Origin: Dietzia aurantiaca
Lineage (GTDB): Bacteria; Actinomycetota; Actinomycetes; Mycobacteriales; Mycobacteriaceae
Direction of reading: 5' to 3'
Length of the DNA: 55,563 nucleotides
NCBI RefSeq assembly: GCF_021033825.1
Contig: NZ_JAIFXZ010000020.1
Span: forward strand, 1-55,563
This document shows positions 1 to 18,715 of the stretch, piece after piece. The notes under the pieces were generated by a model. It worked only from the letters and a program-made list of their open reading frames with translations. It made no database searches and was not told the origin of the DNA. Positions within the stretch are counted from its first letter, which is position 1, and every line of letters starts with the position of its first letter. A program made the translations under genes and the position numbers.

Positions 1-1
1 C

Positions 2-667
2 GCGGGATCGATCTTCTTCGGCATACAGCCATCCTCCTCGACTCAAAAGGAGGCGGCGGGAAACCTGGGGCGGTTCAAGCTGACCAAGATCTCTGATGTG
101 TACGGGTCTGCTTGGCTCACGGCTGGGGCAGGATCGGTCTTGATGCTAGAGGGCGACCCAGGAACGACCGGCGCTGAGATTCATCACGCCAAGCAGCCCG
201 CCGAGGCTGTGGGGCCGCTGGTGATGCGCCACGACCACGCGACCGGCACGACCGACCCGGTGGACCCGCGAAAAGCGTTGATGGCGCACCTGCGCGGTAT
301 GGCGGCTGAGGGGGTCACGAAGAAGTCGGCGGCTGAGGCGATGTTCGGCACCGCCACGGACGCAACCCGCAAGCGCGCCGAGCGTGACTTGATGGGGCTG
401 GTCGCTCAGGGCGGGGTTACTAAGGTCGGCGGAACCTCAGGCGGAAAGGGCGGTGGGACCGAGACTCGCTGGGTCCTCTCCACGGTCAAGTTCAAGGTGA
501 CCGCAACTGATGGTGAACCGAATCGCAAGCCTGATGAGCCCAAGAAGAAGCCGCGCACGGCGCAGAAGCAGGCCGCGAAACCCTCCGCCGGGGCGTCGGA
601 CGAGTCCGCCGAAAGCGTCGGACGGGCGTCGGACGCGGAGGAGGGGGAGAGCGGTGAAAAACGGTAA
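2..667 (+). CDS. RepA-like AAA-family replicative ATPase, C-terminal part (partial)
   Basis: The reading frame is open from base 2 to the TAA at 665-667, so the gene starts left of the window; the GTG at 98 is only an internal codon. The segment around residues 31-80 (DVYGSAWLTAGAGSV, then HHAKQPAEAVGPL and RHDHATGTT) resembles the C-terminal core of RepA/DnaB-like AAA ATPases found in actinobacterial integrative elements and prophages. A winged-helix-like segment follows (KKSAAEAMFGTATDATRKRAERDL), then a charged Lys/Pro/Ala/Glu tail. The Walker motifs would lie upstream and cannot be seen. It is probably the replication or helicase function of the mobile element, and the CGTCGGACG array starts inside its 3' end. 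The family assignment is by recalled pattern only. Confidence 0.55.
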   Translation, partial: AGSIFFGIQPSSSTQKEAAGNLGRFKLTKISDVYGSAWLTAGAGSVLMLEGDPGTTGAEIHHAKQPAEAVGPLVMRHDHATGTTDPVDPRKALMAHLRGMAAEGVTKKSAAEAMFGTATDATRKRAERDLMGLVAQGGVTKVGGTSGGKGGGTETRWVLSTVKFKVTATDGEPNRKPDEPKKKPRTAQKQAAKPSAGASDESAESVGRASDAEEGESGEKR

Positions 668-1579: not shown

Positions 1580-3955
1580 ATGAGTCGCCCACCGAAGACC
1601 ACGCCTCAGCACTCCGAGGGCGATGCCCCGGCTCGACAGGGGACCGCCCTCACCAAGCCTGAGGACGTAATGACGGAACCCACCACCACTTCGGCGGTGG
1701 TGCGACCGCTGTACCTCGGGTACGTCCGGGTCTCGACCGCCGAGCAGGCCGACTCTGGCCTTGGGCTGGAAGCGCAGAGCGCAGCGTTATTCACCGAAGC
1801 CAACCGGCGCGGGTGGGACATTGAGGTGCTGGCGGACAGGGGAGCGTCCGGGAAGCTGATCAACCCCGGCTTACGGAAGGCTCTCGACCTCCTGGCCGCC
1901 GGTCGGGCGGACGGGCTGTTGGTGTCGAAGATGGACCGGCTCGCTCGCTCGTCTCGCCACGCCGCCGAGATCATGGACCTTGCTCAGGACCAGGGCTGGA
2001 ACCTCGTGCTGATGGATATGGGGATCGACCTCTCCACCCCGCCGGGTCGAGCGATGGCGTCGATGCTCGCGACGTTCGCTCAGTTTGAGCGTGAGCTGAT
2101 CTCGGCGCGGACGCGGGACGCTCTCGCTGCTCGCAAAGCCTCAGGGAAGCGGTTGGGCCGACCGTCGAGCATCCCCGCCGCGATCCTCAACCGCATCGTC
2201 TCGGAGCGCGAGGCAGGCAACTCGTTCCCGATGATCGCTGCCGGGTTGAGCGCGGATGGCGTGGTCTCGCCGACGGGGCTGAGGACGTGGAACGAATCAA
2301 CGGTGCGGCGGGCGTACCGATCCGCCACCGAGCACGCCGCAGAGTGCGGACCCAGGTCGAGCGAGAGGCGGTGGCCTGAGATGGCGCACATCCGGCGGAA
2401 CACTCTCTCGACTTCGACCAAGGGCCGACCCAGCTACAGCTACACGGTCGTGTGGACTGAGACGCTGCGCGACAAGTTCGGTCGCCCGATCCCGATCAAC
2501 CCCACGCGCCCCGAAGGTCGCCACAAGACCAAGGACCACCAGGAGACCTACCGCACCCGCGAGGGAGCGCAGGAGCGGGTGGACGAGCTGAACGCAGCGC
2601 GGAACCGGCCCACGGGCACGTCGGCGTCTGAGGTGCGGAGGTTGGGGGATCGGACGCTGGGGGAATACGCGGAGGACTGGCTGGACTCGATGGAGGTACG
2701 GGTCGCCGCCGGCAAGCTCAAAGCCGACACCCTCGCGGATTACCGGCGGCTGCTCTCGACTTACGTGCTCAGCGCACCAGCACCACGCGGGACCGGGGGA
2801 ACCGGTAGCCAGTCGCGCAGCGGGACACGCTCGGAGACCTCGCGGGCCACGTCCCGACGGTCCACGCTCGGGGCAACCCCAGTCGCGCAGGTCACCCCGC
2901 GCATGTGCGAGTCGCTACTACGGGACCTCGTGGGGCGGGAGCTCAGCCCGAAGACGGTGAAGCACGCGTGGGCGCAGCTGAACCGGGTGTTGAAGTACGC
3001 GATGCGCCACGATGCGATCCCGTCTAACCCGGCTGATCGGGTCGAGTTCGACGGGTCCGGCGTCGGGGACCGCGCAGCCTTCGAGCACCACCCCCTCACC
3101 GCCGCACAGGTCGCCTCCGTCGCGGCGGTCGTCGGGGAGCGGTACCCGGTGTACGAGCTGATGACGTTGTTCCTCGCGTATACGGGCCTGCGGTCGGCGG
3201 AGTTGAGCGGGCTGGAGGTGAGGGACTTGGAGCTGGCGACGCGCCCCACCCACGCGGGAACGCCCACCTACACCGGCACCGTCCACGTCCGCCGCACCAA
3301 GGCGCGGAAGGGCGGGGAGTGGCGCACGAGTACCCCGAAGTCGAAGCGGTCCCGGCGTTCGGTGCCGCTACCGCCGTGGCTCGCGGAGAGGATGGCGGGG
3401 TTCCTCGCTGAACACCCCTACGGGCCGACGCTCCCGGACGGCTCGCCCAACCCGGACCACCGCCCCGAGGCCTCGCTGTGGCCGTCGCGGGTTGTCGGCG
3501 GGAACCGGATTCCGGGCCAGCTCGCCGTGGTGCCGCTGACGTACGAGGTGCCTGTGTCGGGCGGGACGTTCTACGAGACCGTGCTCCAGCCAGCGTTGGC
3601 GGAAGTGGGGTTGCCGGTGAGTCGTCCGGCTCGCCCCGCCACTCCGGCGGACCCCGCCACGGGCACCCCGGCACAGCCCGCACGCCCAGCCACACGGGGA
3701 GTCCGGCTCCACGACCTCCGCCACACGTTCGCAACGATGCAGCTGATGGCCGGGGTCCACTACCTCCAGGTCTCCCGCTGGCTCGGGCACGCCACCTTCA
3801 CTCTCACCCTCGACACCTACGGTGACTGGATTCCGGAGGCTGAGGGCGGCGTGGGGAACGCGCTCCCGGACCCCACGGCGGTCGCTATGCCTGTGGCTCA
3901 GGCGACAGCTCCGCAGGAGGAGACGCTGGCTCAGGTTGTGCCTCTGTTCGGTTAG
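1580..3955 (+). CDS. Serine recombinase-tyrosine recombinase fusion (site-specific integrase)
   Basis: One 791-residue ORF carries two unrelated recombinase chemistries. Residues 45-190 are a resolvase-type serine recombinase: YVRVSTAEQ with catalytic Ser52, DRGASGK, KMDRLARS with Arg120 and Arg123, and FERELISARTRDAL. A resolvase HTH follows at about 200-250. From about residue 268 (MAHIRRNTL) it reads as a complete phage-type tyrosine integrase: N-terminal arm-binding region, core-binding domain (about 358-485), and catalytic domain with Arg538 (TGLRSAEL), Lys587 (TPKSKRSRRSV), His711 and Arg714 (HDLRHTF), His737 (LGHAT) and Tyr747 (LDTYGDW). Both active sites look intact. ATG 1580 is chosen because AGAGGAG (1568-1574) precedes it; TTG 1544 and ATG 1670 are alternatives. 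An internal ATG at 2381 could yield a free 524-residue tyrosine integrase. It lies near the tRNA at the element end, as expected of an integrase. A frame error joining two genes cannot be excluded from one sequence. Confidence 0.85.
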   Translation: MSRPPKTTPQHSEGDAPARQGTALTKPEDVMTEPTTTSAVVRPLYLGYVRVSTAEQADSGLGLEAQSAALFTEANRRGWDIEVLADRGASGKLINPGLRKALDLLAAGRADGLLVSKMDRLARSSRHAAEIMDLAQDQGWNLVLMDMGIDLSTPPGRAMASMLATFAQFERELISARTRDALAARKASGKRLGRPSSIPAAILNRIVSEREAGNSFPMIAAGLSADGVVSPTGLRTWNESTVRRAYRSATEHAAECGPRSSERRWPEMAHIRRNTLSTSTKGRPSYSYTVVWTETLRDKFGRPIPINPTRPEGRHKTKDHQETYRTREGAQERVDELNAARNRPTGTSASEVRRLGDRTLGEYAEDWLDSMEVRVAAGKLKADTLADYRRLLSTYVLSAPAPRGTGGTGSQSRSGTRSETSRATSRRSTLGATPVAQVTPRMCESLLRDLVGRELSPKTVKHAWAQLNRVLKYAMRHDAIPSNPADRVEFDGSGVGDRAAFEHHPLTAAQVASVAAVVGERYPVYELMTLFLAYTGLRSAELSGLEVRDLELATRPTHAGTPTYTGTVHVRRTKARKGGEWRTSTPKSKRSRRSVPLPPWLAERMAGFLAEHPYGPTLPDGSPNPDHRPEASLWPSRVVGGNRIPGQLAVVPLTYEVPVSGGTFYETVLQPALAEVGLPVSRPARPATPADPATGTPAQPARPATRGVRLHDLRHTFATMQLMAGVHYLQVSRWLGHATFTLTLDTYGDWIPEAEGGVGNALPDPTAVAMPVAQATAPQEETLAQVVPLFG

Positions 3956-4592
3956 AACTGGCTGAAGGGCGCAGTTTCCATCCGCGGTTCTGTTTGAGAA
4001 TTTCGGTTCGCGCTACCTTGTACATTTCGGTCGACTTGTCCCTCGCCTCTTTTTCAAGCTCCATGATGTCCCCAAGTCGAGATTCGATTTGTGTCATGCC
4101 GGTGGCGTATTCATCCTTTGTTATATGGACCAAGTTACCGTCTTCGTCAGTTTGTGTTGAGCGAGAGTGGAACTCAGCCATTTCTTGTAGGTAGTAGGCC
4201 ACAGCCTTGAAGCGCTCCGCTGAGGTGCTCTTAAAGGAAATAGAATGGTCCACTACTTCTTGACTCGCGTGTAGGCGTAACTCTTCCACTGCGCCGATCG
4301 TGGAGGTCAAGTGTCCAATGACTTCGTCGGGTGGTTTGATGATGTCTGGGATCGATCCAGCAGCTTTTGCGGTTTCCACAGTGTGAACGGCTTCAGTGAG
4401 CCAAAGGGTCATCTGCATCTGCTCTTCGACGCTTCGACTTAGTAACTTGACTGTGGATTTAAGTAATTGTTCTCTTCGCCAATTTCTTAATTCTCTATTT
4501 CGGGCAGAGTGAATCGACCACCAGACGCCGATTAGGGCCACCGCGCCGGTAATGATTGCCGCGAAGAGTGGGAGCCAGTCTTTGATCGCCAT
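3885..4592 (-). CDS. Single-pass membrane protein of unknown function (element cargo)
   Basis: 235 residues from ATG 4592; an upstream in-frame GTG at 4658 would give 257 but has no Shine-Dalgarno and would put residues ahead of a natural N-terminal anchor. Residues 6-26 (WLPLFAAIITGAVALIGVWW) are one hydrophobic helix, then a basic stretch (SARNRELRNWRREQLL), so the rest is probably cytoplasmic. The remainder is charged and helical, possibly coiled coil, ending in a Pro/Glu/Ala-rich tail. No domain was recognised. The 3' end overlaps the recombinase gene convergently by 71 bases. The DNA is clearly richer in A+T than its surroundings, which suggests transfer. It shares its N-terminal anchor layout with the next minus-strand gene, so the two may act together at the membrane; this is inference. 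Confidence 0.6.
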   Translation of the reverse strand: MAIKDWLPLFAAIITGAVALIGVWWSIHSARNRELRNWRREQLLKSTVKLLSRSVEEQMQMTLWLTEAVHTVETAKAAGSIPDIIKPPDEVIGHLTSTIGAVEELRLHASQEVVDHSISFKSTSAERFKAVAYYLQEMAEFHSRSTQTDEDGNLVHITKDEYATGMTQIESRLGDIMELEKEARDKSTEMYKVARTEILKQNRGWKLRPSASSNRTEAQPEPASPPAELSPEPQA

Positions 4593-4691
4593 GTCTAGAT
4601 CGTCCCATGCGGCTACGACAGTCCAGCGCCAGCGCTTTAACTCGGTGCTTCGCGCCACATCGCGTGACGCGGTCAGCCTGGTGCACTATGC

Positions 4692-4716
4692 GGAGCGAGG
4701 TCGGGGACCTCGCTCC
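4692..4716 (-). terminator. Strong hairpin between the two cargo genes
   Basis: An 11-bp perfect stem (4692-4702 with 4706-4716) encloses a GGG loop. It lies 26 bases past the stop codon of the upstream minus-strand gene (4743). No T-run follows on that strand, so it is either a U-poor terminator or a regulatory or processing hairpin. Confidence 0.5.
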
Positions 4717-4742
4717 CGGACTCCAGGGCTGTCGGGATCAAA

Positions 4743-5504
4743 TCAATGAAGGTTGCCTAGAGCTTCGCCTTTGGCTTTGCGTATCAGGCGATTGATGTTG
4801 GTCAACAAAAGGGCTGCTTGCAAGCTGTATTCGTCCGCCATAGAGCTACTAATATGATCGGTCTTTTTGTGGACGGCGATGTTGCGAAGAGTTTGCATGT
4901 TTTGGAGTCTGTTGAGGTCCTTTTCTGAGAGTGCTCCAGAAAAAGCCACTTCCCGAACGGAGTAATTCGGGTTGTGTGTGGATCCCTTTGGTAATTTAAG
5001 GGCGTGTCCGAGGTCATTGATTGCCCTTTCTACCTCTAGCCAGGTGGTAATAATCGAACCGACTGGCGAAACCGGCGATGCTTCCAGGGCTCCCATGATC
5101 GCTAGGCGTTGGTCACTAGCTAGATCGAGTGCAAGATTTTTGAACTCTACCTTGGCGTCTGTGTCGTGATCCCTATGGAATGGGGAGTCGAATCCTTTTG
5201 TGGGTTGCTTTTGGCTGTCTTTCGCCTCGGATTCCTGTGTTGGTGAAGGCGATAGCTTGCAGTCACTTTCATCTGAGTCGTTAATTGACGCGTTCTCTAC
5301 AGTGGCAATGATTTCGTCGCGTTTGATCTCGTTAAACGCAGCCTCGAAACTCCCAGCTTTTAGGGTGCTGAGGTCGTTGACTCGATCAACTAACTTCTCA
5401 AGGGCTGCAGATATCTTCGTACGGAATATGATGATTGTGACAATAATTATCACCGGCCATGTGACTGAGGCGATTACCGAGGCCGTGAATTCGAGTCCAC
5501 TCAT
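4743..5504 (-). CDS. Membrane-anchored protein with HEPN-like C-terminal domain (element cargo)
   Basis: 253 residues from ATG 5504; a GTG at 5558 lies in frame but has no ribosome-binding site. Residues about 8-28 form one transmembrane helix (ASVTWPVIIIVTIIIF). Next come a helical charged region (LEKLVDRVNDLSTLKAG), an acidic Ser-rich linker (about 70-112), and a helical C-terminal half with W-x-E-x-E-x-A-I and LRNIAVHKK. The Arg207-x4-His212 spacing matches the R-x4-6-H catalytic motif of HEPN ribonucleases and DUF4145-like domains. HEPN proteins are common effectors in phage defence, and placement as cargo beside an integrase suits such a role. The HEPN call rests on this motif and helical context only. 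It is AT-rich like its neighbour and probably acquired. Confidence 0.6.
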   Translation of the reverse strand: MSGLEFTASVIASVTWPVIIIVTIIIFRTKISAALEKLVDRVNDLSTLKAGSFEAAFNEIKRDEIIATVENASINDSDESDCKLSPSPTQESEAKDSQKQPTKGFDSPFHRDHDTDAKVEFKNLALDLASDQRLAIMGALEASPVSPVGSIITTWLEVERAINDLGHALKLPKGSTHNPNYSVREVAFSGALSEKDLNRLQNMQTLRNIAVHKKTDHISSSMADEYSLQAALLLTNINRLIRKAKGEALGNLH

Positions 5505-5565
5505 TCGGCCATCATCCCACGAGGCTCTGACAACGATGCTCGTCCCACCGGGCGGCACGCCCCAG

Positions 5566-5587: not shown

Positions 5588-5653
5588 CTCGTGGCCCTGC
5601 CCAGCACACTCCGCGGGGTCGGAGCGTCCGCGCAGGTAGGACGGTGTGAGTTG

Positions 5654-5696
5654 TGGTGCCCCCGGTCGGACTCGAACCGACACTGGACGGGTTTTG
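5654..5696. other. Probable attachment site at the tRNA 3' end
   Basis: Tyrosine integrases often recombine within the 3' half of tRNA genes. Here the 3' end of a minus-strand tRNA faces the element, which carries the integrase, and chromosomal core genes begin on the other side. The segment from the anticodon to the CCA end is therefore the likely core of attL or attR. The matching second copy would lie left of the window, so the core cannot be delimited. Confidence 0.45.
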
Positions 5697-5730
5697 AATC
5701 CGTTGCCTCTGCCAATTGGGCTACGGGGGC
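5654..5730 (-). tRNA. tRNA with anticodon CAA (Leu by the code)
   Basis: Read on the minus strand, the 7-bp acceptor stem (GCCCCCG/CGGGGGC), D arm, anticodon stem, a 5-base variable loop and the T arm (GTCGG-TTCGAGT-CCGAC) fold into a cloverleaf. The discriminator is A and CCA is encoded (5654-5656). The anticodon loop TTCAAAA places CAA at 34-36 (bases 5694-5696), which reads UUG. Bacterial tRNA-Leu usually has a long variable arm, and this one does not; the anticodon stem also has an A-C pair next to the loop. The structure is clear, the amino-acid identity less so. Confidence 0.85.
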
Positions 5731-17119: not shown

Positions 17120-18715
17120 TCACTCGGTCGGGACTACCCCGTTCACCAGTTCGGAGACCGGAACCTGTCGTACGACCTCGGACTGTGCGGGCGACGCGGC
17201 CCTCGCGGACCGCAGAGCGGAGGGGGCCGGGAACAGCTCGTTCAGGTCGGTGCGCACGAGGAACACGTTGTACGCGTTCCAGGTGGTGACCAGGTAGTAC
17301 AGATCTTCACCTTGCGCCCACGGGTGCATGAAACCCCCGTATACGCCCGGCAGCATCGAGTAATCGATCAGGGCGGTCGTCTCGCTCCACGGCCCCTCCG
17401 GGCGGTCCGCGGTGCGCATGACGATCGAGTCGAACCCCTTGGAGTACATTGCCGTGTACTTTCCCAGGTGCTCGTTCCACATGGTCGACAGCTCGCTGGC
17501 GGGGGCGGGCATCACGACCGTGGCGTCCTCGATGTCGGACACCCACGCCTCCGCGTCCCCGTCCCAGTAGTCGTAACCCGCCGGATCGAGCACGCCCGTG
17601 AGAAGTGTGTCGTCGGTGAGGTCGTCGTCGCCGAGTTCGGCAGCGGTGGGGGAGTCGCCCGTCGCCACCCGCGCCAGGATCACCGCGCCCTGCCGGCCCG
17701 AGGGCGTCAGATACTCGTACAGGTAGTCGTCGTCCTCGCCCTTGACGAACGAGCTCATCTGTGCGCCGCGCCAGGAGCTGTCGACGGCGGGTGCGCCGTC
17801 GCCGACCGGCACCGCGTCGGTGATCGGCCGGGCCATCTCGGGCACGGGGGTCCAGTTCTCGCCGTTGTCGGTGGAGTAGGCGATGCCCGAGTAGTTCGTC
17901 GTCCACGATCCCGGCTGTCCCCAGTGCGCCACCGACATGTAGCGCAGGTACTGCACCCCGTTGACGGAGATGCCCGCGGTGGGGATGATCGTCACCTCGC
18001 CGGGCTGGTCGGCCCGCGGCACGATCGACTTGGCGAGCCCGTCGGGATTCATCGCGGCGGAGTCGATGGTGATGCCATCGTCCAGCACGGCGTCGCCGGA
18101 GCGGAACAGGACGTTGGAGCGCCACTGGTTGCCGGGCACGGAGCAGTCGCCCATGGTGTCGCCGAAGGCCATGAGGATCTCGCGATCGTCGGCGTCGCCG
18201 TTGTCCCACATGATGCCCAGGTCGGTTCCCCCGACCCCGTACTTGGCGATGGACTCGGTGGGACTGGTCGGGCCGGTGACCAGCTGCAGGAACTGGGTGG
18301 GGCCGCGGAGGACGGGCACGGTGCCCTCCTCTCCGGTGATCCACGGCGGCATCCCGTAGACGGAGCCCACGAGCGGATCGAGCGACCCGGAGAGACCGTT
18401 GCCGACCGAGCCGGTCTCGAGCTCCTGCACGAGCGACCCGGACCGGTCCGCTGACCCCATCGACCCGGAAGCCGAGCCCAGGAACCCGGAGTCGCCGGTT
18501 GAACCGAGCGACCCGAGGGAGCCGGTGGCCATCCCCGCGCCGGTCCGGTGTTCGAGTAGCGAGCCGAAGTTGCCGAACATCTCGCTGCAGGGTCCGGCGT
18601 CGGCCGTGCCCGCGCCGAGTGTGCTGACGACCGTCACGGTGGCGGCCGCGGTCACGGTGGCAGCGGCGGCCGAGGCGAGGCGCCGGGCGAGGGAGGGGGT
18701 GAGGGGGCGGGTCAT
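17120..18715 (-). CDS. Secreted DUF4185 protein 2, putative endo-D-arabinanase (GH183-like)
   Basis: 531 residues from ATG 18715, which lies 3 bases after the stop of DUF4185-3, so it is the second gene of a two-gene operon. The signal peptide (MTRPLTPSLARRLASAAAAT to GTADA) is followed by a linker with imperfect GS repeats (GSLGSLGSTGDSGFLGSASG). DUF4185 landmarks: GTVPVLRGPTQFLQLVTGPT, GTDLGIMWDNGD, AFGDTMGDC, QWRSNVLF, YSTDNGENW, YEYLTPSGRQG and WNAYNVFLVRTDLN. A 30-residue acidic insert (AELGDDDLTDDTLLTG) after the ILARV segment is absent from the other two copies. It keeps the GPC/GDC cysteine pair. Likely an exported glycosidase acting on wall arabinan; the substrate is inferred from the family. 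Confidence 0.85.
   Translation of the reverse strand: MTRPLTPSLARRLASAAAATVTAAATVTVVSTLGAGTADAGPCSEMFGNFGSLLEHRTGAGMATGSLGSLGSTGDSGFLGSASGSMGSADRSGSLVQELETGSVGNGLSGSLDPLVGSVYGMPPWITGEEGTVPVLRGPTQFLQLVTGPTSPTESIAKYGVGGTDLGIMWDNGDADDREILMAFGDTMGDCSVPGNQWRSNVLFRSGDAVLDDGITIDSAAMNPDGLAKSIVPRADQPGEVTIIPTAGISVNGVQYLRYMSVAHWGQPGSWTTNYSGIAYSTDNGENWTPVPEMARPITDAVPVGDGAPAVDSSWRGAQMSSFVKGEDDDYLYEYLTPSGRQGAVILARVATGDSPTAAELGDDDLTDDTLLTGVLDPAGYDYWDGDAEAWVSDIEDATVVMPAPASELSTMWNEHLGKYTAMYSKGFDSIVMRTADRPEGPWSETTALIDYSMLPGVYGGFMHPWAQGEDLYYLVTTWNAYNVFLVRTDLNELFPAPSALRSARAASPAQSEVVRQVPVSELVNGVVPTE

Follow-up and report, generated by a model that had tools for sequence, protein, structure and literature searches.

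The window analysed here, a 55,563-nt stretch of a Dietzia aurantiaca contig, contains an open reading frame in which a small serine recombinase (ser) is joined to a tyrosine integrase (tyr). We favor, with moderate confidence, the reading that this frame lies on a satellite-like island at a tRNA-Leu gene, that islands of this class normally carry the two recombinases as a two-gene operon in the order ser then tyr, and that here the ser tail underwent a net one-base (modulo three) frame change, or was joined out of frame, which merged the two frames. The tyr half would then integrate and excise the island, and the ser half would serve as a resolvase. The real novelty of the region is probably the two-recombinase pair and not the fused protein.

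The fused frame is a single uninterrupted + strand frame that opens at position 1481, directly after a stop codon, and runs to the stop at 3953-3955. Read from ATG 1580 it encodes 791 amino acids (1580-3955), and an alternative upstream start at TTG 1544 would give 803. The ser half (1580-2380) comprises a Resolvase domain and a helix-turn-helix (HTH) region and contains Ser52, Arg120 and Arg123. The tyr half (2381-3955) begins with an in-frame ATG of its own and comprises core-binding and catalytic regions together with a probable arm-binding domain. The Pfam Resolvase profile (PF00239) matched residues 58-202 of the 803-aa form with an E value of 4e-37, and the Phage_integrase profile passed marginally at residues 721-759 (27.7 bits vs a cut-off of 27.1). 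PHROGs profiles supported both halves strongly, namely phrog_95 and phrog_125 for ser and phrog_1 (E 4e-43) for tyr. Numbered as in the first-pass annotation of this DNA, the conserved alignment columns were Arg50, Ser52, Gln56, Asp119, Arg120 and Arg123 in the ser half and Arg538, Lys587, His711, Arg714, His737 and Tyr747 (the R-K-H-R-H-Y set) in the tyr half; we take these to be the catalytic residues of the two families. ORF reading, profiles and alignments thereby confirmed the ORF, its coordinates and every residue that the annotation had named in the two recombinases. Because both halves match families and retain conserved residues, a random open frame could be set aside. The six serine-recombinase residues were retained in 28 of 30 aligned ser rows, some of which are copies, and the two exceptions were N-terminally truncated ORFs. 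This retention excluded ser as a dead HTH adaptor, and it makes use of the serine HTH for targeting alone, which had also been suggested, unlikely as a rule.

The best solved-structure matches of the ser half were DNA invertases, with gamma-delta and Tn3 resolvase among the others. An AlphaFold model of the fused protein, calculated from 24 aligned sequences, reached a mean pLDDT of 78.8 and a pTM of 0.50. Both halves were mostly confident, and confidence was low at the junction (2345-2377 on the + strand, residues 268-278 of the 803-aa form). The strands and the helix modelled at residues 282-353 would suit an arm-binding domain at the N-terminal end of the integrase. As far as can be judged from sequence, both recombinase halves look intact.

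Relatives of the recombinases were found in Rhodococcus, Tsukamurella, Williamsia, Mycobacterium and other genomes of the same family, and ser and tyr were separate ORFs in every relative that carried both. Among 49 other loci scanned, the integrase was full-length in one ORF in 31 (22 distinct places once copies are removed), and all 31 had a ser ORF upstream on the same strand, at a gap of -1 to 675 nt. In two of these 31 the ser ORF next to the full-length integrase is N-terminally truncated (L028, 5669-6001; L040, 698-1105), and the loci without a ser ORF (L030, L031, L032, L034, L037, L044 and its copy L070, L049, L050, L055, L058 and L061) gave split or partial integrase matches. The first-pass annotation had proposed a search for ORFs with both domains, and had named consistently separate genes in relatives as evidence against a single enzyme. 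Genes were indeed separate in 31 of 31 within the loci searched, and the 773 ORFs of at least 400 aa in 215 sequences (copies included) yielded no second ORF matching both profiles, the window ORF and its two copies being the only hits. In viral contigs, P0001 as query had no match, and a profile search returned three loci; ser and tyr are separate genes in two of these, and the third is truncated by the start of its contig. When the whole ORF was compared with plasmids, none of the at least 5000 matching records listed covered 80% of the query. With one distinct case in 215 sequences and separate genes at the other loci, a conserved ser-tyr fusion family was rejected.

The sequence at the junction preserves the usual two-gene geometry in another frame. 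A TGA at 2377-2379 (+ strand), at which the alternative frame ends as '...REAVA*', is followed by a G and the integrase ATG. The same stop-G-ATG arrangement lies immediately 5' of the integrase in L051, but window 2377-2383 holds it in another frame. Over 25 nt (2360-2384) the window is identical to the ser tail ...REAVA-stop-G-ATG of the congener L006, where the ATG after the ser stop opens another short ORF and a different integrase lies 377 nt further on. The integrase ATG at 2381 is intact and is preceded by GAGAGG at 2363-2368. Across relatives, the ser stop overlapped the integrase start or lay no more than 2 nt away in 16 of the 24 junctions measured (TGATG, TGA-N-ATG and similar), and the integrase frame was open at least 15 nt back into ser in 17 of 24; these counts leave out copies (L036, L041, L042) as well as L006 and L063, whose integrase start is undefined. 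Since the ser frame of the window crosses the TGA out of phase, the fusion is best explained by a net one-base (modulo three) frame change near the end of ser, or by an out-of-frame junction there, and since the integrase frame already extends into ser in those 17 relatives, such a fusion is easily reached. It looks like a frame slip or a bad join, whether real or an assembly error. The integrase ATG appears usable, and a normal integrase would therefore probably be made alongside any fused product, which is itself probably incidental.

If the join were an assembly or sequencing indel, then the strain would have two ordinary genes and the fused frame would exist only in the record. A one-base (modulo three) frame change is the whole difference between the fused and the usual geometry, and the fused ORF is a unique case, both of which speak for this explanation. 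However, the genome scores 100 for completeness and 0.09 for contamination, and positions 2300-2380 contain no homopolymer run longer than 3 bases. We regard an indel as possible but doubtful; it is compatible with our main reading of the element, in which a two-recombinase operon sits on an island at tRNA-Leu.

The boundaries of this island could be traced through a tRNA gene. At the right end of the element, an att core of 46 nt (5653-5698) coincides with the 3' part of a tRNA-Leu (caa) gene on the - strand (5654-5730), the integration target, and an exact copy of it lies at 6284-6329 of contig C11. Within the window, the C-terminal part of a replication helicase (phrog_6012) is encoded at 78-667 (+ strand), with the match starting at residue 26 of window 2-667. 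The helicase is split over the two contigs, phrog_6012 positions 104-300 falling on C11 and 303-425 in window 2-667. Besides this helicase part, the products of C11 1-6329 are a DUF732 protein, a major head protein of phage type (phrog_3990, E 2.4e-103), a 254-aa protein without assignment and a primase-like protein. Window 1-77 and positions 1-80 of L086 (the C11 stretch) have similar inverted ends, with a short target duplication by eye, and we judge from this similarity, by eye, that window 1-77 is probably the terminus of an insertion sequence interrupting the helicase gene. An insertion sequence at the contig ends would account for the break in the assembly. This arrangement suggests an insertion sequence inside the helicase gene, and the island may no longer replicate autonomously. 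We infer that the two contigs carry the parts of one capsid-carrying, satellite-like island of ~12 kb plus the insertion. Taking these parts as one element, an integrase and a major capsid protein lie in one region, the combination by which candidate phage-inducible chromosomal islands (PICIs) are recognized (PMC10654092). The eight element proteins scanned gave no match for terminase, portal or tail genes, the insertion between the contigs being unread.

The target site was read in five congener regions. In G019, some 0.8 kb contains the C11-flanking MFS transporter, the att core (46/46), the tRNA and a gene that we take to be polA-like, and the present island is absent from it. In G012, ~2.4 kb separate the MFS transporter from the tRNA. 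G015 and G003 carry other insertions at the site, and both have a second core; the MFS transporter was not found in the stretch of G008 examined. A tRNA gene was present in 11 of 16 relative loci. The exact copy of the 46-nt core on C11, the undivided site in G019 and the tRNA genes at these loci are strong indications that integration and excision of the island at tRNA-Leu are carried out by the tyr half. The same tRNA-Leu appears to be an integration hot spot, since a second core lies ~14.7 and ~4.2 kb off in two congeners. These two carry other insertions there (L209, cores at 3445-3490 and 18155-18200; L211, tRNA at 1328-1404 and core at 5597-5642).

The capsid protein of the island matched 152 of 50,697 phage records, the best being from Gordonia phages at 44.6% identity. 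Two cargo proteins, both membrane-like by eye, are encoded on the - strand at 3885-4658 (257 aa) and 4743-5558 (271 aa). Neither had a Pfam match above cut-off, and PADLOC returned nothing for three element proteins. Over 4001-5500, where these two genes lie, G+C is 48-55%, compared with 63-73% for the remaining 500-base blocks between 1 and 9000. Seven exact copies of the iteron-like repeat GCGTCGGACG lie within 193 bp (593-785, + strand) that span the 3' end of the helicase gene and the DNA directly beyond it, a possible iteron origin of the island. The whole window contains nine copies of GCGTCGGACG vs 1.74 expected by chance, and none of 100 shuffles reached nine.

We surveyed 301 genomes of the family with the capsid protein alone as query, which is blind to the recombinases. 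The capsid protein was present in 37 genomes, at 39 places (41 rows), and for 32 of these places a flank of at most 14 kb was examined in either direction, shorter where a contig ended. Outside the 32 were the window's own place and G008, for which other loci supplied the reading, and five fragmentary places (G114, G065, G169, G188 and G148). A small ser lay just upstream of a tyr on the same strand, from overlapping to ~270 nt away, in 26 of the 32 capsid loci; in three of the 26 (G222, G281 and G182) the integrase was split over two ORFs. In one further locus, G154, a contig end interrupts the region, and the ser-tyr pair is on a separate contig (L071). In G228 and G106 the neighbor of the small ser is a large serine integrase with a Zn-ribbon domain. 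Capsid islands in which a small ser of the same kind lies near a large serine integrase, in place of a tyrosine one, are at L198 (9028-11243) and L199 (456-3848). No small ser was found nearby in three of the 32: the sole recombinase is a large serine enzyme in G268 and a tyrosine integrase in G161b, and G075 has no recombinase in the stretch examined, which a contig end cuts. In G008, a small ser is followed 377 nt further on by a different tyrosine integrase, and the capsid protein shares 93% identity with that of the window. The first-pass proposal of ser and tyr in one polypeptide is partly supported: conservation of the pair supports the presence of both in one element, and one bifunctional enzyme is unsupported.

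Ser and tyr identities were uncorrelated across relatives. The Mantel r was 0.061 for 20 pairs, a value reached by 988 of 5000 permutations, and fell to -0.004 once the single near-copy pair was removed; this set excludes copies, the truncated ser of L028 and L040, and any tyr that is split or partial. L027 and L057 share 84% identity in ser and 36% in tyr, and L025 and L045 share 32% in ser and 63% in tyr. Other ORFs lie between ser and tyr in some islands (L026, L039 and L029, by eye), in keeping with an exchange boundary there. Within the 377-nt ser-tyr gap of L039 is an ORF that by eye resembles a GIY-YIG nuclease.

These data bear on the possibility that the small ser is the integrase's directionality partner or regulator and not an independent recombinase. 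An excisionase gene often occupies the place just upstream of an integrase, and ser is constantly found in this position, its stop often overlapping the integrase start. The uncorrelated identities, however, led us to reject a ser specific to its integrase; they argue against an integrase-specific directionality factor and for a separate ser job. Small ser genes also occur near large serine integrases, their recombinase residues are conserved, and the palindrome described below accompanies ser across unrelated integrases. We consider a directionality role unlikely. Reassortment by itself does not prove what the ser substrate is.

A candidate binding or crossover site for ser lies on its 5' side. 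In the window this site, which we call site A, is an imperfect palindrome of 29 bp (1445-1473, + strand) that ends 106 nt before ATG 1580. One ser type is accompanied by such a ~29-bp imperfect palindrome in the window and 11 other elements. Over these 12 elements 85.6% of cells were paired, vs at most 43.9% when the alignment was slid. Six of the 11 pairs varied on both sides, a number that 1 of 500 shuffles equalled, and none of 500 attained the covariation score, with the caution that related sequences can exceed such shuffles without structure. The collecting pattern fixed the left arm only, and the five elements first found by it (L162, L172, L191, L204 and L212) have 5 to 7 of 8 outer positions paired. 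The alignment held one copy each of L043, L045, L052, L059/L073 and L064, and omitted a hit in L144, which is not beside ser, and one-mismatch core hits elsewhere. The window's copy, with 5 of 8 outer pairs, is among the weaker ones. The search pattern (the left half of site A) occurs once exactly in the window and has two 2-mismatch matches outside the element, where 1.7 are expected by chance; it has no match in L086, the C11 stretch. Comparable palindromes were weak for ser types B and C, and none was found for type D. A resolvase acts on dimers, so that one site per element suffices, and the single site-A copy per element therefore fits a resolvase better than an invertase. The dyad could also be an operator or an RNA hairpin and not a crossover site.

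The first-pass annotation had raised the possibility of one enzyme with both chemistries. If this were so, then the fused protein would be made, stable and selected in the strain, with the tyr half integrating and the ser half resolving. The frame is open without a stop across the junction, the conserved residues are retained in both halves, and the halves are modelled as well-folded domains with a short low-confidence joint. Yet ser and tyr are separate in relatives, the 773 long ORFs of the 215 sequences collected held no second case, the usual stop and start persist out of frame, and the integrase has an intact start of its own, so that selection on the integrase has no need of the fusion. 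A true bifunctional enzyme is in our judgment very improbable. We give equally little credence to the view that the 791-aa fusion is translated with both halves active, tyr integrating at tRNA-Leu and ser resolving multimers at 1445-1473, as a fusion caught while forming from a co-inherited two-recombinase operon. That ser is an invertase flipping a segment of the island is hardly credible: it belongs to the resolvase/invertase family, its best solved-structure matches are DNA invertases and phrog_125 'DNA invertase' matches it, but an invertase requires two inverted sites, and the site-A pattern occurred exactly once in the window and had no match in the C11 stretch; the insertion that separates the two contigs is unread.

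Under the favored reading of an integrase-resolvase pair on a tRNA-Leu island, the island would enter and leave the chromosome through the tyr half, and replication by its primase and helicase would produce multimers. The ser half, acting as a resolvase at the ~29-bp upstream palindrome, would turn these multimers into unit circles, and it may in addition act as an autoregulator at 1445-1473. We regard these proposed ser functions as evenly balanced between right and wrong. A role for ser apart from the integrase is indicated because ser and tyr identities are uncorrelated and because two capsid loci have the small ser close to a large serine integrase. Points against the main reading are that the window palindrome is imperfect, that the dyad could have another function, that sites for other ser types were weak or not found, that 3 of 32 capsid loci showed no small ser nearby and that the integrase of L006 lies 377 nt beyond the ser stop.

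The arrangement can be compared with several known systems. In Tn3 and gamma-delta, the res site of the resolvase TnpR is located upstream of the gene. The ser half resembles these resolvases in its Resolvase domain, its structure matches and the ~29-bp palindrome upstream, and differs in that they occur with a transposase, whereas ser lies beside a tyrosine integrase on a satellite-like island and has a single palindrome. With tRNA-targeting tyrosine integrases (phrog_1) the tyr half shares the RKHRHY set, a tRNA 3'-end target and a 46-bp identity segment; it differs in that the window-type integrase, where full-length in the loci examined, always follows a ser ORF. At E 1e-5, none of 50,697 phage records matched the window integrase. 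Its relative from L051 matched 9 from phages and 2 from plasmids, and in no case did the match cover 80% of the query.

Among satellites, the closest likeness is to the candidate PICIs of Mycobacterium, which in the parts of the report available to us combine an integrase with a major capsid protein, some with a helicase, and integrate at tRNA genes via tyrosine integrases and elsewhere via serine integrases (PMC10654092). The island shares the integrase and major capsid protein, the helicase and integration at a tRNA gene. In contrast to it, the candidate PICIs carry one integrase type per island, and those parts mention no paired small serine recombinase. Some putative E. coli PLE-like satellites are described, in the portions seen, as having an extra serine recombinase as additional integration machinery (PMC10448857). 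They resemble the present island in tRNA-site integration and serine-type integration machinery; the serine recombinase is there confined to a subset, whereas here it is small, of resolvase size and present in most islands surveyed. The sections consulted of three further papers (PMC3414803, PMC8138268, PMC8628076) make no mention of such a ser-tyr pair, and in mainly open-access literature, at the level of titles and abstracts, we found no description of a paired ser-tyr operon or of a natural serine-tyrosine fusion.

The fusion itself probably carries little weight, and the pairing behind it may weigh more. For annotation, it serves as a caution that in GC-rich operons like these a single frame change can suffice to produce a serine-tyrosine 'fusion'. 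For the biology of the family, most of the capsid islands surveyed keep two mechanistically unrelated recombinases adjacent, yet shuffle their genes independently. This pattern suggests that the integrase sets the position of the island and that the small ser has a separate job, which would most simply be the resolution of multimers during satellite replication.
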